From a virus: DNA of 34,390 bases. Each line of letters begins with the position of its first letter. Position 1 is the stretch's first letter. Below the pieces are notes generated by a model, which was not told the origin of the DNA, ran no database searches, and saw only the letters and a list, made by a program, of their open reading frames with translations. Position numbers and translations under genes: made by a program. Positions 12,369 to 34,390 of the stretch are shown here, one piece after another. Where the stretch lies: positions 1 through 34,390 of IMG/VR virus record IMGVR_UViG_3300031951_000656; one strand, 5' to 3'.

Positions 12369-12447
12369 AGCGACCATCGCCACGCTCGCGGCCTGCGCCG
12401 CCGCGCTGATCTGCGTCTACCTTGTGGTCGCAGGGGGTGACGAATGA
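12358..12447 (+). CDS. 29-aa single-pass membrane microprotein
   Basis: The start at ATG 12358 lies 11 bases inside the end of the CsrA-like gene, preceded by a weak GAGG ribosome site. The product has the hydrophobic helix ATLAACAAALICVYLVVAG and ends GDE. It is a typical small phage membrane peptide, too short to classify; superinfection exclusion and membrane signalling are possible roles. Expression is inferred from coupling and the hydrophobic pattern. Confidence 0.45.
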   Translation: MQIEATIATLAACAAALICVYLVVAGGDE

Positions 12448-12472
12448 CCGCGCCCGGATATGCTGCGGCATC

Positions 12473-12661
12473 ATGCAGCCGCAACCACAGAAGCGCAGGC
12501 GCAGGCTCACGCCCGACGAGGTGCGAGACATCATCCGATCCGCTCGCGCAGGCGAGCAGCAGAAGGCCATCGCGATCCGGCTGCGCGTCACCGAAGCGTG
12601 CGTGTGCCTCATCGTCAAGGGGAAGCGCCATGCGGCACTCTGGCGCGACACAGTCGTTTGA
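12473..12661 (+). CDS. Small helix-turn-helix DNA-binding protein
   Basis: This 62-aa protein starts at ATG 12473. The basic N-terminus MQPQPQKRRRRLTPDEVRDI leads into a compact HTH: IIRSARAGEQQKAIAIRLRV then TEACVCLIVKGKRHAAL, with the Q(Q)xAIAxRLxVTxxxVxxIxxGKRW pattern of homing-endonuclease-associated and small phage HTH domains. It is a candidate regulator of the composite operators. Its 3' end overlaps the resolvase gene by 32 bases. Confidence 0.65.
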   Translation: MQPQPQKRRRRLTPDEVRDIIRSARAGEQQKAIAIRLRVTEACVCLIVKGKRHAALWRDTVV

Positions 12662-13067
12662 GATCGTCGGCGCTCGGCCCGCGCCGCAGGGGTCGAAGTC
12701 GCTCATGCGGCTCCGCTCCGGCAGGTCGATCATGGTCGAGAGTTCCCGCATGGTGAAGCCGTGGCGCTCGCTCGTCGCGAACGCCGCGCGTGACGCGGGC
12801 ATCGCGATGCGCGATGGTCCGGTCGCCGTCAGCATCGTGACCAGATGGACGCGGCCCGCGTCCCACTACGGGAAGCGCGGCCTCCGCGCCACCGCAGCCG
12901 CCTACCCCGGATACGCGGACTGCGACAAACTCGCACGCGCGATCTTCGACGCGCTCGCGGGCATCGCGTACAGGAACGACAGGCAGGTCGTTCGGTTTGA
13001 GATCAGCCGCGTGTGGTGCGGCGACGGCGAAGCGCCGGGAGCGTTCGTCACCGTGTCGGACGCTTGA
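12630..13067 (+). CDS. rusA-like: RusA-family Holliday junction resolvase
   Basis: This 145-aa protein starts at ATG 12630 with the ribosome site AAGGGGAAG. The N-terminus contains FEIVGARPAPQGSKSLMR, the usual RusA opening (G.P.PQGSK). The metal-binding core is seen at Asp97 and Asp99 (YADCDKLARAIFDAL) and Asp117 (YRNDRQVV), equivalent to the catalytic aspartates of RusA; the usual Asn after the second Asp is Lys here. It resolves branched DNA made during recombination-dependent replication. It lies directly before the Bet-type annealase. Confidence 0.85.
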   Translation: MRHSGATQSFEIVGARPAPQGSKSLMRLRSGRSIMVESSRMVKPWRSLVANAARDAGIAMRDGPVAVSIVTRWTRPASHYGKRGLRATAAAYPGYADCDKLARAIFDALAGIAYRNDRQVVRFEISRVWCGDGEAPGAFVTVSDA

Positions 13068-13091
13068 CAACGGCGAATCCCGAAGTACATT
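13064..13091 (+). promoter_or_regulatory. Promoter of Bet-like gene
   Basis: The -35 TTGACA (13064-13069), a 16-base spacer and -10 TACATT (13086-13091) are followed by a strong AGGAGG (13102-13107) ahead of ATG 13115. The -35 overlaps the resolvase stop. It has no CAAG/CTTG operator and no hairpin, so it appears constitutive relative to the composite leaders. Confidence 0.6.
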
Positions 13092-13114
13092 CAGAGAACA
13101 CAGGAGGAAACACA

Positions 13115-14104
13115 ATGGAGCAGCGACAGGAGAACGCGCTTGTCCGTCTCTCGGACGAGCAGGTTTCGATCATCACGCAGACCATCGCGAAGGGTGCCGA
13201 GCCGCAGGAACTCGCGCTCTTCATCCAAATCTGCAACCGCACGGGCCTCGACCCGTTCACCCGGCAAATCTACCTTGTGCCGCGCTACGACCGTGCGCTC
13301 GGTCGCAATGTGCGACAGCCACAGGTCAGCATCGACGGCGCTCGGCTCGTCGCGCAGCGCAGCGGCGAGTACGAGGGGCAAGTGCCTGCGATGTGGTGCG
13401 GCGAGGACGGCGAGTGGCGCGAGGTCTGGCTAGACGCTCGGCCCCCGGTCGCCGCCCGCGTCGGGGTCTGGCGCAGGGCGTTCCGCGAGCCTACATACGC
13501 CATCGCGCTGTGGCGCGAGTACGCGCAGCGCGGGCGCGATGGCGAGGTCACGGGGATGTGGGGGAAGATGCCCGCCCTGATGTTGAGCAAGTGCGCTGAG
13601 ATGCTCGCGCTCCGCAAGGCGTTCCCGGCGGAACTCAGCGGCCTCTACAGCGCCGAGGAGATGGCGCAGGCGGATGATCCGGCACCCGCCCCCGCGCCGC
13701 AGGCTCAGGAAGCCCCCGAGAAGCCCCGCAGGAAGGCCGCGACCGTGGCCGAGGTGTTCGACCCGGTCCCGGCCAAGCCCGCCCCTACGGCGCTCTCCGC
13801 GCCCGCGAAGCGGCCCCCGGCGGTCAAGTGGTCGGACACCGGATCGGATGTGGTCGAGGTCGAGCGGATCGTCCCCCGGGGGAACGGCGTGAGCGCCCTT
13901 CTGTGCAGCCACGCGACGGCGGGCAAGGCGTGGGTCAGCGCGTCCGACCAGATGGTCGGGAGCATCGGGGAGATGGATCGGATCAATCTGTCGTGGAGGT
14001 CGAACGGCGCGTATGTCGAGGCCGTGACCATCGCTCCCGCGCAGTCGCTCGCGGCGTTCCGCGACGAAGCCGGGGAACTCTGCATTCCGTTTGAAGGGAA
14101 GTGA
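13115..14104 (+). CDS. bet-like: Bet/RecT-type single-strand annealing recombinase
   Basis: This 329-aa protein starts at ATG 13115 behind AGGAGG. Residues about 15-200 match the Redbeta/RecT group: a helical N-terminus followed by FIQICNRTGLDPFTRQIYLV, QVSIDGARLVAQRSGEYEGQ, and GMWGKMPALMLSKCAEMLAL then RKAFPAELSGLYSAEEM. These are the conserved Bet segments. Residues about 200-255 are a Pro/Ala-rich linker, and an extra C-terminal domain (about 260-329) is not part of classical Bet. It anneals complementary single strands. No partner exonuclease or SSB is evident nearby. Confidence 0.9.
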   Translation: MEQRQENALVRLSDEQVSIITQTIAKGAEPQELALFIQICNRTGLDPFTRQIYLVPRYDRALGRNVRQPQVSIDGARLVAQRSGEYEGQVPAMWCGEDGEWREVWLDARPPVAARVGVWRRAFREPTYAIALWREYAQRGRDGEVTGMWGKMPALMLSKCAEMLALRKAFPAELSGLYSAEEMAQADDPAPAPAPQAQEAPEKPRRKAATVAEVFDPVPAKPAPTALSAPAKRPPAVKWSDTGSDVVEVERIVPRGNGVSALLCSHATAGKAWVSASDQMVGSIGEMDRINLSWRSNGAYVEAVTIAPAQSLAAFRDEAGELCIPFEGK

Positions 14105-15193: not shown

Positions 15194-15610
15194 ATGCTGA
15201 CCGAATCCGAGATCGCGACCGCCTCCCCCGCCGACCTGTACGAGTTCCGCATGGCTGAGTTGAACCGCGCTGTGTATCAGGGGGAGGTCATGCCGCTCCC
15301 GCCATTCCGCAAGGTCGCCCGCGTCGTGTCGGGATGCTCCGTCGAAAACCCCTCCACGATGAGCCTGCTGCACGAATCGCTCTGCGGAGCGATCAAGAAT
15401 CTCGCGCATTGCGGACGGGGCAACACGGACGCGCATTGGAACTTCGTCGAGGGAATGATCGGTGCCACGGTTATCGTGATGGGTGGAGCCGCCTACGACC
15501 CCGCGTTCGACGGGTGGAACACCAAGCAGCGAACGCACTACATTCATGCGCTGATGTTCGCCGCTGATGCGGCCCTCCGCTTCGCTGAGTCGAATGGGGG
15601 TGCCAAGTGA
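15194..15610 (+). CDS. Hypothetical early protein
   Basis: This 138-aa protein follows leader E. It contains SPADLYEFRMAELNRAVYQG, then SLLHESLCGAIKNLAHCGRG, and a hydrophobic stretch EGMIGATVIVMGGAAYDP, ending in a helix (HALMFAADAALRFAESN). The middle could be a membrane-proximal or buried helix. Family unknown. Its stop overlaps the GTG of the next gene. Confidence 0.65.
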   Translation: MLTESEIATASPADLYEFRMAELNRAVYQGEVMPLPPFRKVARVVSGCSVENPSTMSLLHESLCGAIKNLAHCGRGNTDAHWNFVEGMIGATVIVMGGAAYDPAFDGWNTKQRTHYIHALMFAADAALRFAESNGGAK

Positions 15611-15831
15611 GCGACGGAATCAACTGGGTGCGAATCCGGGAGGCCGTCATCCTCCGCGCCGACCGCGCCTGCCCCCATTGCCGGGGACGCGGATTCACCG
15701 TCGAGAGGCATGGGTTCCGGCAGGGCGAGGAACTGATCGACTGCGACTGCGCCCTCGACTCCGTCCGCGACGGAACCCCCGAGGCCCGCGAGGTCGAGAA
15801 CGGCAACTACATCATCCTTCAGGCGCTTTGA
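15607..15831 (+). CDS. Small zinc-finger-like protein (CPHCRGRG)
   Basis: This 74-aa protein starts at GTG 15607, coupled to its upstream neighbour. Cys residues in ACPHCRGRGF and DCDCA form a possible four-cysteine zinc site of the DnaJ CxxCxGxG type, the two halves about 20 residues apart. It may bind zinc and nucleic acid or protein. The terminator begins 24 bases after its stop. Its last 20 bases overlap the 3' end of the oppositely oriented sigma-like gene. Confidence 0.65.
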   Translation: MSDGINWVRIREAVILRADRACPHCRGRGFTVERHGFRQGEELIDCDCALDSVRDGTPEAREVENGNYIILQAL

Positions 15832-16818: not shown

Positions 16819-17226
16819 ATGAGCGACGAGCGCCACAACCCCGAGGGGGGCGAGGGGGGACCGCGTCGTACAGGGACTCGCGGACATCTCCGCATCCTTG
16901 AAGCCGCCGTCTATCAGGGATGGGACATCCCGGAAGAGGCGTTCGCGACCATCCCCATCGACCTCCTCTCCATCGCTCAGGACGAGCAGGCCGCGACCCG
17001 CGACCGCATCCGGGCGAGCGAGGCGCTCGCGCACCTGACCCAACAGCGGATCGACGCGGCGATCCAGTTGGATCGCATCATCCGGCTCGACGCGGGTCAG
17101 GCGACCGACCGGGTGCAGATCATGGATAGCCTCTCGGAAGCGCAGTTGCAGGCCGTAGCGGCCTCGCTGCGGCCCGCCGCCCCGACCAAGCCCACCAAGC
17201 CGTGCCGAAAGCCCAAGCCCCGCTGA
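16819..17226 (+). CDS. terS: Putative small terminase subunit
   Basis: The preferred start is ATG 16819; an ATG at 16765 would overlap the previous gene. The 135-aa product contains LRILEAAVYQGWDIPEEAFA, ATRDRIRASEALAHLTQQRI and DRIIRLDAGQATDRVQIMDS. The xxAVxxGWDIPxxA...ARxRxxASxxL...LDxGxATDR layout is one I associate with small proteins directly before large terminases. It would recognise phage DNA and recruit TerL. Its 3' end overlaps the TerL start by 25 bases. The assignment rests on position and this pattern. Confidence 0.65.
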   Translation: MSDERHNPEGGEGGPRRTGTRGHLRILEAAVYQGWDIPEEAFATIPIDLLSIAQDEQAATRDRIRASEALAHLTQQRIDAAIQLDRIIRLDAGQATDRVQIMDSLSEAQLQAVAASLRPAAPTKPTKPCRKPKPR

Positions 17227-18659
17227 AGCCCGAGGAGGCCGTCAAAGCCGCCCGGGAGAATCCGGCGGCGTTCGTCGCTCTGTGCCTTGGAAGGCCCGTC
17301 AGCGCCCTTCAGCGCGATTTCCTGTGCCATGCGATTGAGAACGGGAGTTGGTACGCGGAACTGCCGCGCGGCCACGCCAAGACAAGCACGGGCGCGTACC
17401 TGCTTGCGTGGTGGCTAGGGGTCAGGCCGGAAACCCGGTTCAAGTACATCTCGCAGAACGACGAGGCCGCAGCCGCCACGACGCGATTCGTGCGCGAGAT
17501 CGTCCGCAGCCAAGCGTTCCAAGCCGTGTTCCCGAAGGTGCGGCTCAAGCCGGGTGAGGACACCGTGACGGCGTGGTCGGTCACGGCTCCCGGACTTCCG
17601 GCCCGCCGCGACCCGTCCGTGCAGGGAGCGGGCATCTTCGGTCGAACCGGAGGCCGAGCCGACATCCTGTGGTTCGATGACATCTGCGACCTTCGGAACA
17701 GCGTGCTACAGCCCGCGCTCCGCGATCAGGTCAAGGAAGCCGTCGCGAACATCTGGATGCCGATGCTCGACCCGTCCGCGCAGCATCCGAGCCGGGTCTG
17801 GAGGACCGCGACCCCGTTCCACACCGATGACCAGACCGCCGATTGGCGCAAGACGCACGCGGCAGACGGTTCGCTCTTCCGGCGACCCTGCCGGGGTACC
17901 GACAGCCCGTGGCCCGAGGTGTTCACCCCCAAGGTGCTTTCGGATCGCCGGAACGAACTCGGCCCGATGGCCTACGCCCGAGCCTACGAACTGGTGCCGC
18001 TGTCGAGCGACCTGCTTGTGTTCCGGCCCGAGTGGGTGCGCTACTACCGGGCGGGCGAGCGCCCGACCGTCTCCCGGGTCGTGGCGGCGGTGGATTGGGG
18101 CTACGGTCGCAAGGCGCAGGAGCGCGACGATCCCGACTTCTCGGTCTGCCTCGTCGGGGAGGTCGATCAGGACCGGAACCTGTACCTCACCGACATCCTG
18201 CGCGTCCGCGAGGCGTTCCCCGAGTTCGCGAAACTGGCGGCGGCGCTGCTGTCCCGCCGGGGCGCGAGCGTGGTTCTGGCCGAGGCGAACGGCCCTCAGA
18301 AGGGCATCTTCGACCAGTTCGTGACGATGACCTCGCAGCCGATGGTCGCGGTCGAGCGTGCGACCGACAAGCACATCCGCGCGGCGGGAGCGCAGCCGTT
18401 CGTGGCCGGAGGCAAGTTGCTGTTCCCGACCGACGAGCGCGGATCGGTGCTTCCTCAGTTCCAACCCGTGCTAGACGAGATGATGTCGTTCCCCGCCGGA
18501 TCGCACGACGATACGGTTGACACGGTCGTTGACCTGTGCGGCGAGGCGACGAGGGGATCGCTTACCCGGGGCGACATGAATGTCAAGCGAATAGAACGGC
18601 CCGACGCGATTGGTAGGCTGTTTGGCGCGACGAAGCCCAAGCGACCGATGTTCGGCTGA
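17202..18659 (+). CDS. terL: Terminase large subunit
   Basis: This 485-aa protein starts at GTG 17202, overlapping the small subunit gene. The ATPase domain has a Walker A-like PRGHAKTS (residues 55-62) and Walker B ILWFDD with Asp159/Asp160. The nuclease domain has AAVDWGYGRK (Asp298), VLAEANGPQKG (Glu361) and SHDDTVD (Asp436/Asp437), the acidic triad expected of an RNase H-like terminase nuclease. It drives DNA packaging into the prohead and cuts the concatemer. Length and motif order are normal. Confidence 0.95.
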   Translation: MPKAQAPLKPEEAVKAARENPAAFVALCLGRPVSALQRDFLCHAIENGSWYAELPRGHAKTSTGAYLLAWWLGVRPETRFKYISQNDEAAAATTRFVREIVRSQAFQAVFPKVRLKPGEDTVTAWSVTAPGLPARRDPSVQGAGIFGRTGGRADILWFDDICDLRNSVLQPALRDQVKEAVANIWMPMLDPSAQHPSRVWRTATPFHTDDQTADWRKTHAADGSLFRRPCRGTDSPWPEVFTPKVLSDRRNELGPMAYARAYELVPLSSDLLVFRPEWVRYYRAGERPTVSRVVAAVDWGYGRKAQERDDPDFSVCLVGEVDQDRNLYLTDILRVREAFPEFAKLAAALLSRRGASVVLAEANGPQKGIFDQFVTMTSQPMVAVERATDKHIRAAGAQPFVAGGKLLFPTDERGSVLPQFQPVLDEMMSFPAGSHDDTVDTVVDLCGEATRGSLTRGDMNVKRIERPDAIGRLFGATKPKRPMFG

Positions 18660-18672
18660 TACACTCGCCACC

Positions 18673-21600
18673 ATGTGCGGAACCCGCTCCACATTCTCGC
18701 GAACGGAAACCAAGTTCTTCGCAGGGGGGACAAGGGTCGAGCAGGGGCAGTTGCGCGAGGTCACGGCAATGCAGTTTGCGAGGCTGTTTCCGACGCGCAA
18801 GGATGGGTACACGAAGAAATCGGGTGCGAAGCGTCAGCCGCTAGACGAACGCGCTCTGTGGCCCGAATCGAAGTGGCGTGAAATCTATCTGAGCAGGGCG
18901 CACGCCGCTCTCGACCCAAACAGGGAGTGGGGACAGGCCGAAGCCAACGAGGTTCGCGCTGTCGGGGTCGATGCGTGGGTGCGCGAGAAGATGCAGGCGC
19001 TCTACGCGGATCGACCGCCTATCGGAATCCCAAGTTCCCGGTTTCTCGTCACGAACTCGTCGCCGCCACAGGCAATCGACCGGGTCGTGAAGTGGGAGCG
19101 AACCGAAACGCCCACGACCTGCGGCGCACGGTGCCGCATGGCGCGGGGACCGATGTGCGACTGCGTCTGCGAGGGCCAGTTCCACGGCGCGGGTGCGACG
19201 ATGTCCCGCGCCCGGTTCTCCGAGATCGACCTGAAGCCCACCGAGCAGATGGCATCGAACGCGGCTCGCGGGCTTGAACTCCGCGAGAAGCACGGCAAGG
19301 GCGGAACCGCCGTGGGGGTCGCCCGCGCACGCGACATCAAGAACCGCGCGAATCTCTCCCCCGACACCGTGCGCCGGATGCACTCGTTCTTCTCGCGGCA
19401 CGCGGGGAACGAGAAGGGCGGCGAGGACGATGCGGGCTACATCTCGTTCCTGCTCTGGGGCGGCGCTGCGGGCCGCGAGTGGGCCGCGAGCAAGTCAAGG
19501 CAACTGGACAAGAGCGAATCGGCCCGTGGGGCCGCAAGGAAGGCAACGATGGGGTCACTTCGTGTTGGAAAGGTGCCGCTTGATTATGCCAAGTCCATTG
19601 GTGAGGAATACGGGCAGCGGGCATCGCGGCGCGGGATCAAGCGCCTGATTGATGACCCGGAAGCCCTTGCGCGAATCAGACTGCTGAAGCATGGATATGA
19701 ACCGATGTCCTCAGCGGCAGAGAAAATCGACAAGGCGTTTTACGACGGATGGCTGCGCGGCCTGACGCGCGATCACATCCGGGGCGTTGAACATCCCCCG
19801 AAGTTCAAGATCGGAGATCGCGTCACCCATAATGTTGGCTCTTCGCTTCATGTCGGGACTGTCGTTCGGGTTCTTGCACACTCGGAACCGGAACCGGAGT
19901 ATCAGGTGGACTTCAACTCGCTTCCGACCGGGCGGTCAAGGCTTATGCTTTCCGAATCGTCACTCCACCCATACAACCCCCAGAGGGGACTGAAGGCCGC
20001 AAGGAAGGCAACGATGGCAAAGTTCAAGATTGGCGACCGGATTGCGTACAAGCCGTCCCCTGCGAAAACTGCCGGGGAAATCGTGGAAATCCGTGAGCCG
20101 GATTCGGTGGGCGACATTCAGCGCCGCCGTCCGGGGCAGCGCCTTGAGGTCGAGTACGGCGTTCGGCAGGAGGGTGGAGCGATCATGTGGATTTCCGAGG
20201 GCATGGCGGTGAAGGCATCGCGCCCCGGCACGAAGGCGAAGATGGGACGAACCGAAGAGGAATACCGCGAGGACATCGGTAACGCCATTGCCCTGTTGAA
20301 GAGTTGGACGAAGGCTCTCGACGCGGCGTTGCTCGCGGGAAACTATCGCGAGGCACAGAAAATCATCGCGAAGATGTCCACAACCGCGCAGCAACTGCAG
20401 GCCGAACTCAAGAACCCCGTGCAGAGAATGTCCCGCCCCGGCAAGGCGAAGATGGGACGCGCCGAACGCGAACTGCCGAATGGCGAGGTGCATCTTGATT
20501 TTGCCGCCGCAAAGGAATGGCTGTCGGGTCTTTCCGACGAGCAGTTGCGCTATGTCATCAAGGACGCGCGAGAGGCGGCGAACGCGATGCCGGAAGGGAA
20601 GAAGTTCAACTACTACCACGACCTTGTTCTGACGGCGGCACAGATGCTCACCAAGCGAACCAAGGCATCCCGCCCCGGCACCAAGTCCACTCACAAGGAA
20701 CCCGACATGAACCGCATTGAGATGTCGCGCCCCGGCGCGAAGGACGCTTTCGCGCTCGGACAGGCCGCTGCGGCTGCGGGCATCGACCGCCCGGAGAACG
20801 ACGAGGCGCTGCGCGAACTCGTCAAGAAGGTCGGCGGCGCTGAGACGGTCAGCCTGTTCGCCCGATGGAGCGAGGGCAAGGCCAAGTTCGCTCATGCGTC
20901 ATGGCATCAGGGAATCCTTGGCGCGGAAACTGCGCCGCAACTGGCGGCGCATTCGTGGATCGACCAGAACCTGTATTTCCTCCGGGGTCGCACGGCGATG
21001 CTGCTTGCCGACCTTGCGGCGGGCGTTCATGCCACCAATCCGAACCTGCCGCTTCCGCAGGCCGTGATGCAGGCGGCGAAGGACATGGTCCGCAAGGGCG
21101 TTGCGACTAGCGAACTGCGGGATTGGGTCGCCAATGGCGGCAAGTTCTCCCGCTCCGGCGCGAAGGCGAAGTTCGGGACTCCCGACGAGGCGCTTCATGT
21201 GTTCAATGTTCTCGCGGAAGCGGAGAAAGCGGGCATGAACGGCAACCGCGCAAAGATGCGCTCGCTCCTCGCTTCGATTTCCGCGATGGTCGAGCGCGAC
21301 CGCTCCAAACTCCCTGCGGGGGCGGTGGCCTTCTATGACGAAATGAAGGCCAAAGCCGCCATGTCCCGCCCCGGCACAAAGGCAGAGTTTGCGGATTACG
21401 CATCGTTTCACCCAACTGCCCCGTGGACTCCAAACCCGCAGGGAAATCACCGCTACAAGAAGGGTGATCGCGTTGTAAGCCATGAGGGCCGAAACCCGAA
21501 AACAGGCGTTATTGATAGGTTGATGCGCGATGCACATGGCTATCCGACCTATGTTGTGTATTGGGACGAGGGCGGTACTAGAGATGTTGCAGATGCTCAT

Positions 21601-22038
21601 CTAACCAAGATGTCCCGTCCCGGCGCGAAGGTGAAGTTTGGAAATGCTGACGCGCTTTTAGACCTTGCAAGCGGATACATCGCGGACGGCGACGATGAGG
21701 CGGGGCTGCTGCTAACCGATCTTGTCAAGATGCAGAATCGCGGGCTGTTGTCTGAGGATCAGAAGAAGTACCTTCGCAAACTGATTCAAGAGGGCCGCGC
21801 TATGGGCGTTTTTTCCCGCCCCGGCGCGAAGGCGCGGTTCGGAGATGCCGAGAAGTTGAACTCCCTACTCGCTGCCGCCGTTGAGGCGATGAGGCGCGGT
21901 GATAAGTCGGCTTTGTACAACTTGATGGCGCAGGCTCTACGCGAGATTGATGAAAACACCCCCGCAGGACTGCGGCACGACTATCAGCACCTGAAGAGCA
22001 TGATGTCCCGCCCCGGCGCGAAGGCGACGAAGCCGTGA
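18673..22038 (+). CDS. Giant modular protein with nine SRPG(A/T)KxxFG linkers
   Basis: This 1121-aa protein starts at ATG 18673, 13 bases after terL. Residues 1-145 are unrecognised. Residues 150-171 carry a Cys/His cluster (Cys150, 154, 162, 164, 166, His171) ending in GQFHGAGAT, and 188-273 a GGTAVGVARARDIKNR...LSPDTVRRMHSF...LLWGGAAGREWA domain; both are widespread phage modules. The rest is a string of small domains: SH3-like units opening KFKIGDRV (377), KFKIGDRI (450) and KKGDRV (about 928), and short helical bundles. They are joined by the basic peptide SRPG(A/T)KAKFG at residues 516, 587, 666, 685, 826 (SRSG), 898, 981, 1048 and 1112, the last closing the protein. Position between terminase and portal suggests a virion or head-assembly role; processing is inferred. 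Confidence 0.85.
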   Translation: MCGTRSTFSRTETKFFAGGTRVEQGQLREVTAMQFARLFPTRKDGYTKKSGAKRQPLDERALWPESKWREIYLSRAHAALDPNREWGQAEANEVRAVGVDAWVREKMQALYADRPPIGIPSSRFLVTNSSPPQAIDRVVKWERTETPTTCGARCRMARGPMCDCVCEGQFHGAGATMSRARFSEIDLKPTEQMASNAARGLELREKHGKGGTAVGVARARDIKNRANLSPDTVRRMHSFFSRHAGNEKGGEDDAGYISFLLWGGAAGREWAASKSRQLDKSESARGAARKATMGSLRVGKVPLDYAKSIGEEYGQRASRRGIKRLIDDPEALARIRLLKHGYEPMSSAAEKIDKAFYDGWLRGLTRDHIRGVEHPPKFKIGDRVTHNVGSSLHVGTVVRVLAHSEPEPEYQVDFNSLPTGRSRLMLSESSLHPYNPQRGLKAARKATMAKFKIGDRIAYKPSPAKTAGEIVEIREPDSVGDIQRRRPGQRLEVEYGVRQEGGAIMWISEGMAVKASRPGTKAKMGRTEEEYREDIGNAIALLKSWTKALDAALLAGNYREAQKIIAKMSTTAQQLQAELKNPVQRMSRPGKAKMGRAERELPNGEVHLDFAAAKEWLSGLSDEQLRYVIKDAREAANAMPEGKKFNYYHDLVLTAAQMLTKRTKASRPGTKSTHKEPDMNRIEMSRPGAKDAFALGQAAAAAGIDRPENDEALRELVKKVGGAETVSLFARWSEGKAKFAHASWHQGILGAETAPQLAAHSWIDQNLYFLRGRTAMLLADLAAGVHATNPNLPLPQAVMQAAKDMVRKGVATSELRDWVANGGKFSRSGAKAKFGTPDEALHVFNVLAEAEKAGMNGNRAKMRSLLASISAMVERDRSKLPAGAVAFYDEMKAKAAMSRPGTKAEFADYASFHPTAPWTPNPQGNHRYKKGDRVVSHEGRNPKTGVIDRLMRDAHGYPTYVVYWDEGGTRDVADAHLTKMSRPGAKVKFGNADALLDLASGYIADGDDEAGLLLTDLVKMQNRGLLSEDQKKYLRKLIQEGRAMGVFSRPGAKARFGDAEKLNSLLAAAVEAMRRGDKSALYNLMAQALREIDENTPAGLRHDYQHLKSMMSRPGAKATKP
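19531..20017 (+). repeat. 22-bp direct repeat at module boundaries
   Basis: A 22-base sequence starting GCCGCAAGGAAGGCAACGAT occurs exactly at 19531-19552 and again at 19996-20017, both in the same frame and both encoding AARKATM. The copies flank a 465-base unit that includes the first SH3-like module, and a second SH3-like module starts right after the downstream copy. This fits duplication or shuffling of modules. Confidence 0.8.
20218..22035 (+). repeat. Nine dispersed SRPG-linker repeats
   Basis: Nine in-frame copies of a ~30-base unit start at 20218, 20431, 20668, 20725, 21148, 21364, 21613, 21814 and 22006. The core TCCCGCCCCGGC is near-invariant (one copy has CGC-TCC, encoding SRSG) and is followed by codons for (A/T)K(A/V)(K/E/R)(F/M)(G/A). 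The copy at 20431 lacks one codon. The distances in residues are 71, 79, 19, 141, 72, 83, 67 and 64, so linkers recur about every 65-85 residues. Confidence 0.9.
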
Positions 22039-22209: not shown

Positions 22210-23685
22210 ATGGCGAAGAAGAAGCCCACGGACGGAAACCCGCTCACCAACGGCCTGACCGTCGAGGAGAGGCCGCGCAAGCCGCTCCCGGCTCCGGTCG
22301 AGCGCGGGCTTACTTCGCCGCTCGCGACCGCAGTCGAGGTGCAGCGTTCGTTCTTCACGACCGCCGACAAGATGCTGCGGAACAGCAGCATCGCCTACCG
22401 CCTGAATCCGCAGTATCAGCAGATGATGCGGGCCGACGCGGACATCGAAGGTGTCCTGCGTTCCCTTCAGGTCACGCTCGCGAGCCTTGAATGGGCCGTG
22501 ACCTGCACGGACGAGGACAACGCCGCCGCCGCCGAACTCGCGGAGAAGGTGGCGAAGGTGTTCGACGCGATGCCGCGCCGCTCGGATTTCGTGCGTGCGA
22601 TGCACGAAGCCGTGTGGTACGGGAACGCCGCCTGCAACCTTGTCTACGAGCGCGACTCCCGGCTCGGGGTCAGGGTCCGCGAGTGGTATCCGTTCCACCC
22701 GGACACGCTTGCATACGACCAACGGGGCAACCTAGCGATGCGCGTCGGCGCGGACTACTCCGCGCACGGGCCGTCCTCGCAGAACATCGGCTTCGACAGC
22801 CGCGTCCACATCTTCGATGAGCGCGAGCGCAAGGCCGTCGTGCTGCACCGCGTGTTCGTGAACGCGCCCGACTTCAACGACCCGAACTCCACCGAGAGCA
22901 TCTATCGCGGCGTGGGCGCTCGCGATGTCTGTTGGTTCATGTGGCTCGCGAAGCAGGAAATCCTTCAGGACGCGATAACCTACGCGGAGCGGTACGCGAT
23001 GGGCATTCGCGTCGGCTACTACCCGCTCGGTCAGGACGCGGGCCGGGAGATGATGGAGACGGTTCTGTCGAACCTCACGAACGACAACTCCGTCCTGCTC
23101 CCGCAGAGCGGAACCGAGAAAATCTACGACATCGACATCAAGGAACCGAACGCAGGCCGCGCTCAGGTGTTCATGGAACTGGTGAACTGGTTCAGCGGCA
23201 AGATCAAGGAAGCGATCCTCGGTCAGTCGCTGTCCTCTGAGGCTCAGGGGACCGGGCTTGGTTCCGGGGTCGCGAACCTGCACGCGGACACGCTCTCGCG
23301 AATCATCCGCTACCACGCGGACGCGCTCGCGGACAGCCTCACGAACGACTTCGTGCGGATCGTCGCGAAGATGCTCGGCGGCAAGGACGAGGACATTTCG
23401 TGCCTGCGATTTGAGTTCGCGCCCGAGCGCCCGGACCCGAAGGAACGCCTTGAAGCGATCCGCGCGTTCGTGGAGATGGGCGGCAGGGTCGCTGAGTCGG
23501 AGGTCCGCGACCTCCTCGGCCTCTCGCAGCCCGGAGAGGGTGAACCCGTTCTCGGCATGGCCTCGCAGGCGGCGGGCGCACCCGACCCGCTGTCGGCCAT
23601 CCTCGGGGGCGGATCGGTCCCTGACGAGGGCGAGCCGCCCGCGCAGGGCGCTCCCAAGGCGTTCAGCCGCCGCAGTTGGTGGTGA
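22210..23685 (+). CDS. Portal protein, Mu gp29-like (DUF935)
   Basis: This 491-aa protein starts at ATG 22210 with GAGGA upstream. Characteristic segments are YQQMMRADADIEGVLRSLQV, LEWAVTC, FVRAMHEAVWYGNAACNLVY, LAKQEILQDAITYAERYAMG and VNWFSGKIKEAILGQSLSSE followed by ADTLSRIIRYHADALADSLT. These match DUF935 portals of Mu-like head modules. It forms the dodecameric ring at the capsid vertex for DNA passage and tail attachment. It ends AFSRRSWW, and the next gene starts in its stop codon. Confidence 0.9.
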   Translation: MAKKKPTDGNPLTNGLTVEERPRKPLPAPVERGLTSPLATAVEVQRSFFTTADKMLRNSSIAYRLNPQYQQMMRADADIEGVLRSLQVTLASLEWAVTCTDEDNAAAAELAEKVAKVFDAMPRRSDFVRAMHEAVWYGNAACNLVYERDSRLGVRVREWYPFHPDTLAYDQRGNLAMRVGADYSAHGPSSQNIGFDSRVHIFDERERKAVVLHRVFVNAPDFNDPNSTESIYRGVGARDVCWFMWLAKQEILQDAITYAERYAMGIRVGYYPLGQDAGREMMETVLSNLTNDNSVLLPQSGTEKIYDIDIKEPNAGRAQVFMELVNWFSGKIKEAILGQSLSSEAQGTGLGSGVANLHADTLSRIIRYHADALADSLTNDFVRIVAKMLGGKDEDISCLRFEFAPERPDPKERLEAIRAFVEMGGRVAESEVRDLLGLSQPGEGEPVLGMASQAAGAPDPLSAILGGGSVPDEGEPPAQGAPKAFSRRSWW

Positions 23686-24808: not shown

Positions 24809-26035
24809 ATGACGCAGCCATCGCATCGAATCTCTGACATGGGCGACAAGGTCGTGATCCACGATCTTGAGGTCTTCTGCGCTTATGACCGTGGGATCGA
24901 CGGCGACCACGATGACGAACTGAAGAAGTTCGACAACGACCGCGTGCGCGACATCGTCGCATCGACGGCGCAGTACATGGATCGCGGATCGTATCCACGG
25001 CTCGTCGTGATGCACGAACGCGACGGCAAGGAACCGAAGTCGAGCGTCGGGCGCTTCACCAAGATTCGCTACGAGGAGCGTGGCGGCGTTGGATACATCG
25101 TGGGCGACTGCGAGGTCGAGCGCGGCGTGTTCGACAAGTTGCTCGCGACCAATGCGTTCCCGCGTCGAAGCGCGGAAATCTGGCAAGAGCAGAACCATCT
25201 GTCGGAGGTCGCGCTGCTTGGTCGCGAGACTCCGCGAAGGCCGCTGCCGGACACGCATTTCGTGCGGTCTGGCGACCGCGTGACCTTTGCTCGCTCACTC
25301 CGCTTCGACATGGGGACGGTCGGTGGCGGGCTTTCCACTTTCATCCCCGGAACGAAGGATCGCAACATGGCAGACGATGACATTCGCGGCGAACTCGCTG
25401 CGATGAAGGCTTCGATGGAGGCTCTTCAGGACGAGTTCAAGAAGCGGTTCGGATACGACGAGGAGTCGGACGAGCCGATGGAGAACGCCGAGCGCGAGGG
25501 CGAGAAGGAGGAGATGGAGGCCGACGATATGCTCACTCAGCAGTTCGCTGAGGAGGAGGGCGACGGCGACGGCATCCACATCGACATCGACTCGCACGGC
25601 GATGAGGAAGAGGAGGAAGAGGAGGACGAGGAGGCCGAGATGTTCCCGGCTTCGCGTCCGGGCCGCGCCGATGTCTTCGCGCTCCGTCGCGAGAACGCCC
25701 GCATGGCCCGCGAACTCCGCGAGATTCGCAGCGAACTCGCGCAGGAGAAGTTCTCCCGCGAACTCGACGCGATGGAGCAGGACGGCTACCGGATTCCGTC
25801 CGAGCGCCGCCCGCAGTTGATCGCGGAACTCGCCGCGAGCCGCGACCCGGCCTCGCTCATCGACACTTGGCGCGACCTGTTCTCGCGTGACTCGACCGGA
25901 GTCCGCATCGACATGGGCCGCGCCACTCTCCGTCACTCCGATTCGGATACCCGAAACATCTCCGACCTTGTCCGCGAGTTCGCGGGCAAGCCGGAGGAGT
26001 TCGTGAAGGCAGTCAACGCCCGCGTGAAGCGGTAA
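24809..26035 (+). CDS. Prohead protease-scaffold fusion, Mu gpI-like
   Basis: This 408-aa protein starts at ATG 24809; an ATG at 24839 is possible. Residues about 10-170 form the protease domain: DNDRVRDIVASTAQYMDRGS, LVVMHERDGKEPKSSVGRFT, and FPRRSAEIWQEQNHLSEVAL then LGRETPRRPLP, matching the L.RRS.E.......L..VALLG..PP motif of Mu-type proteases. Residues 172-184 carry GGGLSTFIPGTKD. After a likely internal start at Met187 comes a scaffold part: helical, then very acidic (about 215-278), then SRPGRADVFA at 282 and a coiled coil to the end. It should build the prohead and then degrade the scaffold and itself. Confidence 0.85.
   Translation: MTQPSHRISDMGDKVVIHDLEVFCAYDRGIDGDHDDELKKFDNDRVRDIVASTAQYMDRGSYPRLVVMHERDGKEPKSSVGRFTKIRYEERGGVGYIVGDCEVERGVFDKLLATNAFPRRSAEIWQEQNHLSEVALLGRETPRRPLPDTHFVRSGDRVTFARSLRFDMGTVGGGLSTFIPGTKDRNMADDDIRGELAAMKASMEALQDEFKKRFGYDEESDEPMENAEREGEKEEMEADDMLTQQFAEEEGDGDGIHIDIDSHGDEEEEEEEDEEAEMFPASRPGRADVFALRRENARMARELREIRSELAQEKFSRELDAMEQDGYRIPSERRPQLIAELAASRDPASLIDTWRDLFSRDSTGVRIDMGRATLRHSDSDTRNISDLVREFAGKPEEFVKAVNARVKR
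25367..26035 (+). CDS. Nested in-frame scaffold protein (internal start)
   Basis: ATG 25367 lies in frame within the protease gene, seven bases after AAGGA, and would give a 222-aa protein starting MADDDIRGELAAMKASMEAL. It would contain only the scaffold half: acidic region, SRPGRADVFA and coiled coil. Nested scaffold genes read from an internal start of the protease gene are known in Mu (I/Z) and lambda (C/Nu3). The internal ribosome site supports the same plan here; it is not proven. Confidence 0.55.
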   Translation: MADDDIRGELAAMKASMEALQDEFKKRFGYDEESDEPMENAEREGEKEEMEADDMLTQQFAEEEGDGDGIHIDIDSHGDEEEEEEEDEEAEMFPASRPGRADVFALRRENARMARELREIRSELAQEKFSRELDAMEQDGYRIPSERRPQLIAELAASRDPASLIDTWRDLFSRDSTGVRIDMGRATLRHSDSDTRNISDLVREFAGKPEEFVKAVNARVKR

Positions 26036-26051
26036 GCACAAGGAACCCAAC

Positions 26052-26444
26052 ATGGCAGACTTCGGATTCATCCCCAACCTCGTCGCTTCCGGCGACATCT
26101 CCCCGTTCCGCTTCGTGAAGATCAGCGGTGCCTTTCAGGGCGCTCAGGCCGCTGCGGAAGGCGACTACGCAATCGGCGTGACGGACGGCTCCGTGAACAA
26201 GTTCGACGGAACCTTCCACGCGGTCAGCGGTCAGCAGATCAGCCTTCAGCCGACGAACACCGTACAGATCGAATGCGGTGGCAATGTGACTGCGGGCGCG
26301 TTCCTTGAATCGGATGCGAACGGAAAGGCCGTCGCTGCGGGAGGCGCGGCTGCGGTTTCCTCGTACATCGCGCTTGAGGGTGGAGCGAGCGGAGAAATCA
26401 TCCGTGCGTTCCGCTTCGGCTATCGCGGCCCCGTCTTCTCCTGA
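26052..26444 (+). CDS. Putative capsid decoration protein (DUF2190-like)
   Basis: This 130-aa beta-rich protein has AAAEGDYAIGVTDGSVNKFD, NTVQIECGGNVTAGAFLESD and ANGKAVAAGG. The segment with G.V..G..L..D..G.A..A matches DUF2190-type decoration or capsid-stabilising proteins, which commonly precede the major capsid gene. It has few Lys/Cys and no TM. Likely role: trimeric decoration of the capsid surface. Confidence 0.75.
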   Translation: MADFGFIPNLVASGDISPFRFVKISGAFQGAQAAAEGDYAIGVTDGSVNKFDGTFHAVSGQQISLQPTNTVQIECGGNVTAGAFLESDANGKAVAAGGAAAVSSYIALEGGASGEIIRAFRFGYRGPVFS

Positions 26445-26481: not shown

Positions 26482-27534
26482 ATGGCATTTACCGTCGCGG
26501 GTGGTGGTCTTTCGACCTTCATCCCCTCCACGAACGATCTCGCGACCGGGGCGCTTCAGGTCGAGTTCACGCGCAGCGTCAACTCGTTCGCGCTGTCCCG
26601 CTACGCGCAGTTGGTCCCCGTCACCAAGATGACGGGCTACTATCTCCGTCAGGATGTCTCGGACAATGTCCGCGTCACCGACGAGAAGGAGTTCGTGTGG
26701 CCGCTCGGCAACGACGCGCCCACGGGCAAGCAGAACTCGTTCGACTTCATCCAGTACAGCACGCAGCGGTTCGCGTTCCCGTTCTACATCCCGCAGGAAA
26801 CGACCGCGCAGGCGGCGTGGGATGTGGTCGCGCAGCACGCCCGCAGCAAGGCGCAGTTGGCGATGACCCGCCGCACGATGCAGGCGGCGACCGTCCTTTC
26901 CACCTCGGGCAACTGGGGCAACAACTACGCGGCCTTCTGCAACTCGTCCCCCCTGTCGGTCGGCGCGGGGTCGAAGTGGGATGGCAGCACCGAGGCGAAC
27001 GGCTACATCCAGAAGTCGATTCAGACCGTCATGCGGCTCGTCTCGCTGTCGAGCGGCGGCGCGGTCAGCCCGAATCAACTCATCATGGTCATCAGCCCGA
27101 CCGTCGCTCAGACCGTTTCTCAGTCGCCGGAGGTCAAGGCGTATGTGAAGAACTACGGCGCGGCGCTGTCGTTCCTTCAGGGTTCGGACACCTTCTCGCG
27201 GTGGGGCATCCCGCCGACCCTGTTCGGACTTGGCGATGTCGTGGTCGATGACTCGGTGAAGGTGACGAGCAAGAAGGGCGCTGCCTCCCTCACCTCGTCG
27301 TATGTCCTCGGCAACGGCGCGTACTTCGTGTCGCGTCCCGGCGGTCTGGTCGGTGTCGAGGGCAGCACCTCGTTCTCGACCCTCCAGATTTTCGCGTACG
27401 AGGACATGACCGTCGAGCAGTTCAGCGATCCGCGCAACCGTCGCCTTGAGGGCCGCGTGATCGACAACAGCGCCGCCGCGCTCGTCGCCCCCGTGGGTGG
27501 CTTCGCGATTGGCGATGTCATCAACGCATCGTGA
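26482..27534 (+). CDS. Major capsid protein
   Basis: This 350-aa protein starts at ATG 26482 with AGAAAGAGAG upstream. It begins MAFTVAGGGLSTFIPSTND and lacks a long N-terminal delta domain, as expected when scaffold is supplied in trans. Features of an HK97-fold protein are visible: a long N-arm, then QSPEVKAYVKNYGAALSFLQ (spine helix region) and VSRPGGLVGVEGSTSF, with an A-domain-like end NRRLEGRVIDNSAAALVAPV. Position after the protease-scaffold and decoration genes supports the call. The GGGLSTFIP motif is shared with the protease-scaffold protein. Confidence 0.85.
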   Translation: MAFTVAGGGLSTFIPSTNDLATGALQVEFTRSVNSFALSRYAQLVPVTKMTGYYLRQDVSDNVRVTDEKEFVWPLGNDAPTGKQNSFDFIQYSTQRFAFPFYIPQETTAQAAWDVVAQHARSKAQLAMTRRTMQAATVLSTSGNWGNNYAAFCNSSPLSVGAGSKWDGSTEANGYIQKSIQTVMRLVSLSSGGAVSPNQLIMVISPTVAQTVSQSPEVKAYVKNYGAALSFLQGSDTFSRWGIPPTLFGLGDVVVDDSVKVTSKKGAASLTSSYVLGNGAYFVSRPGGLVGVEGSTSFSTLQIFAYEDMTVEQFSDPRNRRLEGRVIDNSAAALVAPVGGFAIGDVINAS

Positions 27535-33041: not shown

Positions 33042-34390
33042 TCGAAGCGTGGTTTGAGCGATGGACGAACCATACGACCCCGGGTGCGGGGAACATTCCT
33101 GCGTTTTTCCCCTCCGAGGAAATCTTGGAACTGGCGGAACTCGCGGGCCTTTCGATGGACGATCTGTTCAGCATCCATATCCCGGGCGGCGCAAGCCGTC
33201 ACAGCCGAATCCGATGCCTTGTTCCTCGCGATCAGATAGCGTCGCTCTATCTCTCAAACGGCCCATACGGAAAGGCGAGCGCGACATTCCATTGGCGGGA
33301 GCGGAACAGCGCGACCGTCTACACGGCCTCCAAGGTAAGCATGGATGTGATTCTGCTGCCGCCTCGACCGATCTTCGGTCGTTCCGATGCGGCAGGCGTG
33401 ATGATGGTCGAGGCGGTGGATATCCGGTACTGGTGGAAGCAGACTAGGAATCGCGGCGCGTTCAACGCGCCGGAGAACGACATCTACACCGGGGATGGTC
33501 GTTTCCTCTCATGGAGCAGCGCGAAGACGCTTCCTGAACTGCTTCAATGGATGTGGGAGGAACTGGACGATCTGCGCGGGGCGACATTCACAGCGTCCAA
33601 GTTCCTGTTCGACTTCGATTCGTATCTTCCGAACGCGGCCCTGATCGACAGGCTCGCGGACTACGAACTCTGGCCGACGATGTCCACGGCCTCGCGCATC
33701 GACCTCCTGCTTTCCCTCACGGGGTATGTGCTGAACTGGATTCCCGTCCCCACTCCTGTGACGGGATACAGTTACAAGGTATTCAAGATCGAAGACGATT
33801 CCGCGAAACTGGATGCGATGATGTCCGGCGCGGGTTCCGCTAAGGTCGGCAAGCGTGCGTACTGCGGAGGTCTTGAGCCGTCGAGCGCGAACGCATCGAC
33901 TACTGACGAACTCCTATCCATCTGGAAATCCACGATCCGGGCGCAGATCAACCGCTCGGCCTCCAAGATGGCGATGGAGATTCCGTTCCGTTCGACGGAG
34001 TCGGCCACGGACTATCACGGTGCGTCCAATCCGCTCCTGTTTGAGCCTCTCGACTTCCCGGCATCGAAGGTCGCGTTGAACGCAGAGATGACGGTGAACA
34101 CCGCCCGCGCCCGCGCTGACGATCTAGGGACCGCAGCGGGTTCGCTCCCCCTGCCGTTGATGCGCGAGACGCGCCCTTGGCTATCGCTGCCGGATACGAC
34201 GGTGCCATCCATCAATCCCGATGGCGACATCATCCTGACCCCGACCTATCCGTCTCCTCCGTCGTGGAACCCTGCGAATCTTGAGAACGCGATCCGAGAC
34301 AACTATGTCAATCGGCTCCAGATGTCCATCGGGTCCATTGCGTGGATGGGATGGCCTGAACTGGACGGCGGCGCATATCGGTCCACAATG
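33038..34390 (+). CDS. Tail/tail-tip protein, 5' part (continues at left edge)
   Basis: This gene starts at ATG 33038, in the previous stop, and stays open to the end of the window. It continues in frame from base 131 to 799, for about 673 aa in total. The N-terminus MIEAWFERWTNHTTPGAGNI is followed by a Trp/Tyr-rich domain (MVEAVDIRYWWKQTRNRG, then DGRFLSWSSAKTLPELLQWM) and, around residues 220-245, RLADYELWPTMSTASRIDLL. No enzymatic motif was recognised. Position after the 629-aa tail protein and before the fibre adaptor suggests a hub or tip protein to which the fibres attach. Confidence 0.75.
   Translation, partial: MIEAWFERWTNHTTPGAGNIPAFFPSEEILELAELAGLSMDDLFSIHIPGGASRHSRIRCLVPRDQIASLYLSNGPYGKASATFHWRERNSATVYTASKVSMDVILLPPRPIFGRSDAAGVMMVEAVDIRYWWKQTRNRGAFNAPENDIYTGDGRFLSWSSAKTLPELLQWMWEELDDLRGATFTASKFLFDFDSYLPNAALIDRLADYELWPTMSTASRIDLLLSLTGYVLNWIPVPTPVTGYSYKVFKIEDDSAKLDAMMSGAGSAKVGKRAYCGGLEPSSANASTTDELLSIWKSTIRAQINRSASKMAMEIPFRSTESATDYHGASNPLLFEPLDFPASKVALNAEMTVNTARARADDLGTAAGSLPLPLMRETRPWLSLPDTTVPSINPDGDIILTPTYPSPPSWNPANLENAIRDNYVNRLQMSIGSIAWMGWPELDGGAYRSTM
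34261..34390. repeat. Right copy of terminal overlap
   Basis: This is the second copy of bases 1-130, offset by 34,260, with one mismatch at 34387. It lies inside the tail gene that starts at 33038 and preserves its reading frame (34,260 is divisible by three). The mismatch near the edge of the overlap suggests either a real polymorphism in the sampled phage population or an end-of-contig base-call error. Confidence 0.9.

Follow-up and report, generated by a model that had tools for sequence, protein, structure and literature searches.

A phage gene between terL and portal encodes an array of small protein cassettes apparently exchanged at a short repeated linker

The IMG/VR virus record IMGVR_UViG_3300031951_000656 comprises 34,390 nucleotides (nt), and this whole stretch of DNA (positions 1 to 34,390, hereafter the window) was analysed with regard to one large gene located among the genes for head formation. 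A direct terminal repeat of 130 nt, 99 % identical, is present at positions 1-130 and 34261-34390, so the window probably represents a complete phage genome. The gene in question is an open reading frame (ORF) starting with ATG 14 nt past the end of terL and encoding a protein of 1121 amino acids (aa) with an isoelectric point (pI) of 9.8. An earlier reading of this DNA, made without database searches (the sequence-only reading), had placed it between the genes for the terminase large subunit (terL) and the portal, in agreement with the matches of its flanks to phrog_38 (E 4e-60) upstream and to the Mu-type portal family Portal_Mu (E 3e-48) downstream. The gene order is TerL, array protein, Mu-type portal, MuF protein and putative protease-scaffold protein (Table 1).

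The same reading had described nine nearly identical SRPG-type peptides separating modules mostly 64 to 83 residues apart, with a copy closing the protein. Nine SR(P/S)G linkers do start at aa 516, 587, 666, 685, 826, 898, 981, 1048 and 1112, the last of them at the very C-terminus, while 2000 shuffles of the protein gave a mean of 0.011 and a maximum of 1. The proposed spacing holds for most of the intervals (71, 79, 19, 141, 72, 83, 67 and 64 aa) but fails for two: the 19-aa interval is a short spacer, and the 141-aa interval consists of two modules fused via a degenerate joint, WSEGKAKFAH (aa 730-740). The copy at aa 587 is one residue short (SRPGKAKMG). At the DNA level the sequence TCCCGCNNCGGCGCGAAG, with at most 2 mismatches allowed, was found 8 times against 0.33 expected, every time within the array gene. 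A second type of joint, (A)ARKATM, absent from the sequence-only reading, occurs at aa 288 and 443 and is encoded by two identical 23-nt copies.

Table 1. Features of the cassette-array gene and of selected neighbouring genes in the window (L numbers refer to loci of related phages)
Feature	Position	Strand	Evidence or remark
RusA-type Holliday junction resolvase	12444..13067	+	PF05866 E 3e-11
Single-strand annealing protein RecT, a candidate for driving cassette exchange	13013..14104	+	PF03837 E 1e-30
Terminase large subunit	17202..18659	+	phrog_38
Cassette-array gene, 1121 aa	18673..22038	+	translation
Conserved N-terminal part, Cys-rich motif CGARCRMARGPMCDCVCEGQFHG	18673..19209	+	73% identical to L001; phrog_6842-like E 0.028
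Head-associated domain (LREKHGKGGTAVGVARARD..LLWGG), aa 183-283	19219..19521	+	phrog_2859 E 3.5e-8; on other phages' protease/portal proteins
Second-type joint AARKATM, copy 1	19530..19552	+	identical 23-nt repeat
Helical module and SH3/TUDOR-like module (KFKIGDRVTHN)	19555..19995	+	phrog_9730 E 0.0012; weak Hva1_TUDOR E 0.047
Second-type joint AARKATM, copy 2	19995..20017	+	identical 23-nt repeat
SH3-like cassette KFKIGDRIAY	20017..20214	+	DNA identity 90.6% in L017, 85.7% in L069; neighbours differ
Linker 1 SRPGTK	20218..20235	+	linker motif, protein and DNA
Helical cassette	20239..20427	+	~50% identical relatives in L002, L011, L067, L178
Linker 2 SRPGK, one residue shorter	20431..20445	+	linker motif
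Cassette with GEVHLDFAAAKEWL	20446..20664	+	among the 16 matches listed, most 56-67% identical
Linker 3 SRPGTK	20668..20685	+	linker motif, protein and DNA
Linker 4 SRPGAK	20725..20742	+	linker motif, protein and DNA
Cassette DAFALGQ..ARWSEGKA	20746..20877	+	86.7% DNA identity to L002 over 20668-20877
Cassette AHASWHQG.., joined without full linker	20878..21147	+	76.8% DNA identity in L015
Linker 5 SRSGAK	21148..21165	+	linker motif, protein and DNA
Helical cassette	21169..21360	+	54% identical to L044
Linker 6 SRPGTK	21364..21381	+	linker motif, protein and DNA
SH3-like cassette HRYKKGDRVVSHEG	21385..21609	+	51% identical to L175
Linker 7 SRPGAK	21613..21630	+	linker motif, protein and DNA
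Helical cassette	21634..21810	+	weak relatives, best 39-41%
Linker 8 SRPGAK	21814..21831	+	linker motif, protein and DNA
Helical cassette DAEKLNSLLAAAVEAMRRGDKSALYNLM	21835..22002	+	module family 31; ~55% identical in L032 and L067
Linker 9 SRPGAK, C-terminal	22006..22023	+	linker motif, protein and DNA
Portal, Mu type	22210..23685	+	PF06074
Putative maturation protease and scaffold; head domain on it in other family members	24809..26035	+	alignment

In the first relative (L001) TerL, the portal and the protease are 70-81 % identical to those of the window, and the N-terminal 180 aa of the array proteins show 73 % identity, but past that point only the linkers are held in common. A portal-based scan yielded 80 loci, in which the position between terL and portal is nearly always taken by a linker array with 0-9 internal cassettes (median length of the internal modules 72 aa), each of them ending in the linker and all of them preceded by a fairly constant N-terminal part. 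Across 62 array proteins a position-weight model of the linker detected 296 copies, where shuffled sequence gave 0.4, with the consensus (F/M/A)-S-R-(P/T/S/A)-G-A-K-(A/S)-x-(F/M)-(A/G), in which R and G are nearly invariant. Module number thus varies while the linker is kept, as the sequence-only reading had predicted. A scan with the exact 18-mer TCCCGCCCCGGCGCGAAG returned at least 120 stretches. Among the matches listed, 114 of the 115 loci new to the set carry core genes of this phage group, and all but one of 277 distinct contexts lie in the SRxGAK frame of long ORFs or of ORFs cut off by the end of the contig. No relative of the portal was found in GTDB genomes and none of the major capsid protein (MCP) among cultured phages. 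An assembly artefact was rejected as the source of the arrays because the frames are intact, many independent contigs carry them and single-cassette differences separate 99 % identical contigs of different metagenomes. MAFFT misaligned a set of fragments against the window array (43 rows), and this alignment was left unused. A second array, sharing some module families with the first, was seen at another place in the head region of some genomes (L031:6255-7787, L120 on the reverse strand, and L170).

The modules fall into 176 families, 79 of which occur in at least two phages with varying neighbours and positions, and modules with 97-99 % DNA identity were found between unlike neighbours. The ends of such shared segments were mapped in module pairs of at least 90 % DNA identity with different neighbours. 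On the left side identity ran 12-24 nt past the module and then ended in 28 of 31 junctions, and on the right side it ran 18-38 nt further and then ended in all 31. The 99 % identical L050 and L054 differ by one extra cassette plus linker, with an overlap of 19 nt, and L016 and L078 likewise differ by a single inserted cassette plus linker; such insertions between 99 % identical genomes measured 192 and 237 nt, with linker overlaps of 15-19 nt. One cassette is replaced between L031 and L036, and in L027 and L028 two cassettes of 98-99 % DNA identity sit at other positions. Phages with portals 95-99 % identical had a mean cassette Jaccard index of 0.04 (about 4 % in common) and kept none of 13 cassette adjacencies, and 11 of 18 cassette pairs in common were in inverted order. 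Cassettes of the window likewise recur in other phages: its region 20005-20238 with the SH3-like cassette is 90.6 % identical in L017, and in L015 the AHASWHQG-type cassette precedes the DAFALG-type one, opposite to the order in the window. As judged from these comparisons, it is whole modules that are acquired, lost, substituted or moved to another place, the breakpoint lying in the 18-nt linker, and there is hardly any doubt that the gene is a cassette array exchanging its parts at the linkers.

The linkers are conserved beyond the peptide that they encode. Proline is specified by CCC in 97 % of cases (25 % elsewhere), serine by TCC in 84 % (18 %), glycine by GGC in 96 % (44 %) and alanine by GCG in 89 % (39 %), and this bias persists in genomes of 53-57 % GC (serine p 1e-12, glycine p 2e-14). 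Residue 4 of the linker is homogenised within arrays (pair identity 0.70 versus 0.47 after shuffling), which is what recombination among linkers would produce. Since silent positions are fixed and the breakpoints sit in the linkers, the near-identity of these peptides, which had pointed to a role of the peptide itself, is, on the sequence data, at least partly a DNA-level feature. The sequence-only reading had suggested either cutting or docking at the linker, and direct support was found for neither. Conserved silent sites and homogenised residue 4 would also suit a short selfish or neutral DNA element, mobile or repeated in ORFs, with cassette turnover as drift bringing no benefit. However, the modules are under purifying selection (median ratio of non-synonymous to synonymous substitution rates 0.22 in 105 pairs from 35 families), and the matches listed for the 18-mer confine the element to this phage group and, with one exception, to one frame of long ORFs, which makes this explanation very improbable.

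The domain at aa 183-283 points to the head as the location of the array protein. It is N-terminal on the maturation protease or on protease-scaffold-capsid proteins of Roseobacter phage CRP-811, Limnohabitans phage DC31 and Vibrio phage 1.214.O and lies within the portal-MuF protein of HRTV-4, the roles of these proteins being taken from annotation and sequence reading; a comparison of folds matched it to prohead proteases, XkdF proteins and portals. Within the phage family it is carried by the array protein in 15 distinct loci, by the putative protease in 13 and by both in none. Given these carriers, the array protein is likely to reside in or at the procapsid, and the idea of capsid cargo, already raised by the sequence-only reading, gains indirect support. 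In L073:5036-6895 a single ORF was observed that combines the head-associated domain with the putative maturation protease, a cassette-like module lying between the two.

The 263-aa array protein of L036, a relative with a single cassette, was modelled by AlphaFold as three folded parts (predicted template modelling score 0.42). The predicted local distance difference test (pLDDT) was 84-96 for the N-terminal domain, mostly 84-89 for the cassette and 83-93 for the tail, and below 50 for stretches 120-132 and 199-229, which include the linkers. The beads-on-a-string layout envisaged earlier is thus matched by folded modules and disordered linkers in this relative. Searches of PDB folds gave no significant match with the L036 mini-array, and none with the protease model, which is of moderate quality (mean pLDDT 62).

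Array proteins are basic (median pI 9.8), and this property, together with the SH3/TUDOR-like modules and the head-associated N-terminal domain, could indicate a structural scaffold or a DNA-condensing head protein, whose linkers would dock on capsid or scaffold and whose modules would be interchangeable spacers or nucleic-acid binders. The range of 0-9 internal cassettes and the almost unshared content at 95-99 % portal identity are hard to reconcile with a fixed structural task. Moreover, cassette family phrog_9437 (L069:3593-3952) is also a stand-alone small protein, uncharacterised, that unrelated phages of Rhizobium and Agrobacterium encode in their early accessory regions. It is further present on 866 plasmids, most of which are enterobacterial and 741 of which are conjugative, in accessory regions near replication genes. 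A structural role is therefore improbable, and the stand-alone homologues are a sequence-based hint at host-acting modules.

A different fate of the modules would follow if the array protein were a polyprotein cut at every linker by the maturation protease in the procapsid, freeing many small cargo proteins. The putative maturation protease-scaffold gene is close by, the linkers are disordered in the L036 model, their R and G are nearly invariant, and the scaffold protein carries a linker-like motif, FPASRxGxxDxFA. The motif is, however, confined to part of the family, has mostly R where linkers mostly have P/T/S/A, and in about half of the cases falls under the linker threshold. Residue 4 differs from phage to phage while the scaffold motif does not change with it, the T4-type (L/I)xE motif is near only 10 of 296 linkers, and DNA-level conservation accounts for linker identity without cutting. 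A polyprotein is accordingly doubtful. The idea that the scaffold motif proves a protease site common to both proteins was also weighed and rejected, since the motif is confined to too few clades and differs from the linker at the variable position; its serine is mostly TCG and it is therefore free of the DNA constraint of the linker. The head maturation protease family phrog_2976 was matched by 1 of 39 members of the putative protease-scaffold.

The reading preferred here is that of a head-targeted protein carrying swappable, probably host-acting cargo, and it is considered rather probable. The linker DNA would serve as homology for recombination by RecT/RusA or host enzymes, and the linker peptide as a flexible joint. 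Lambda Red tolerates diverged DNA and short identical blocks (PMC2327257), and RecT/RusA are candidate movers of the cassettes. The N-terminal domain, found on the maturation protease in sister phages, would bring the array protein into the procapsid, and the modules would be cargo taking effect in the cell infected next, with host defences as the most likely target; such a role would explain a module turnover far above that of head genes. Injection of the modules as host-acting cargo is slightly favoured, while cutting at the linkers, possible in this scheme though not required by it, is unlikely. Taken in full, with one head-operon ORF collecting and reshuffling small anti-host modules, an 18-nt joint being both recombination homology and flexible peptide, and several payloads delivered into the cell, the scheme amounts to a phage 'protein integron', for which the chances are judged about even.

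Several observations weigh against the preferred reading. No Pfam family was found above chance among the cassettes, most of which have no recognisable relative, and the PADLOC search for defence-related functions gave just single weak matches. Ten representative cassettes had no match in cultured phages. The head domain is missing from the whole contig in 24 array-bearing loci and so is not essential in many arrays. The linker homology is short, 18 nt, and a RecT homologue was found in just 7 loci, partly because most contigs are fragments. In Pfam, NCBIfam and PADLOC taken together only single weak matches were obtained, no family having matches in two or more of 72 arrays, and the PHROGs matches of modules were to families without assigned function only.

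Some further features of the window and its relatives were recorded. The motif GGGLST(F/Y)(I/V)PxTxD is common to the protease-scaffold protein and the N-terminus of the MCP (encoded at 26482-27534) in the window and in many relatives, and may be a maturation cleavage or binding site. Intergenic repeats of the early region, at 9.8, 10.4, 11.0, 11.5 and 15.1 kb on both strands (AAATCCGGTCAAG..CTTGCACCC..CCGATAGGGG, plus CCGAAAGGAAATCGC ahead of ATG), are probably regulatory. Positions 15607-15831 show weak similarity to the restriction alleviation protein Lar (E 0.005, under the Pfam cut-off). Three small ORFs between array and portal in L062:8468-9998 resemble the protein encoded at 26052-26444 in the window (phrog_673, annotated as head scaffolding) and are possible paralogous decoration proteins.

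In this family of uncultured phages the array gives the impression of a system by which the contents of the virus head are changed rapidly. It would represent a new route of viral diversification, in which cassettes within a single protein are exchanged combinatorially and the linker peptide itself encodes the joint. Should the modules be injected anti-defence factors, a large, self-delimiting catalogue of new inhibitors, separable at the linkers, would be contained in the arrays. Another possible use is that of the linker, combined with the head-associated domain, as a tag by which proteins are loaded into phage heads.

No described system with this layout was found in the open-access literature, the part of the literature covered by the search, nor is any known to us, and no known family fits the cassette array. 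Integron arrays resemble it in their head-to-tail exchangeable units, bounded by one short repeated site and turned over rapidly, but each of their cassettes is a gene of its own, with a structured attC site, and they have a dedicated integrase, whereas the units described here are protein modules joined in frame; in the subset of window ORFs covered by the Pfam or PHROGs scans, no integrase family was found. MARTX-type effector arrays are bacterial secreted toxins with their own protease domain, interchangeable effector modules and unstructured linkers. The likeness lies in one polypeptide delivering interchangeable modules via such linkers, and no sequence relation is claimed.

Polyvalent proteins combine 2 to 15 domains per polypeptide, are often encoded beside virion genes and have been proposed to be injected (Iyer et al. 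2017, PMC5512222). The array protein likewise joins several distinct domains in a polypeptide adjoining virion genes and would likewise be injected. Polyvalent proteins, however, carry large known catalytic domains, while the modules described here are about 72 aa long, almost all of them unknown, and joined by one uniform, DNA-conserved linker, and beyond single weak matches no catalytic or LPD-type domain was recognised in 72 arrays (Pfam, NCBIfam, PADLOC). Domain mosaicism of phage proteins (Smug et al. 2023, PMC10684548) also involves fragments exchanged between proteins; a regular single-joint cassette array in a head-operon gene goes unmentioned in the parts of that study consulted.

The T-even internal proteins IPI, IPII and IPIII are small, basic, fast-changing head proteins that are injected, and every one that has been characterised is an inhibitor of one specific GmrSD type IV restriction enzyme (PMC12373910, PMC9026906; described as basic in PMC9026906). 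They share with the arrays a short conserved peptide and hypervariability between close relatives, seen here as the low Jaccard index. They differ in being encoded by separate genes with an N-terminal targeting peptide, whereas here the modules are fused in one ORF with the peptide between them, and in being cut at (L/I)xE, a motif rare near the linkers. Because of the extreme turnover and basic pI of the arrays, the T-even internal proteins may be regarded as their closest functional analogy, though not as a group to which they belong.

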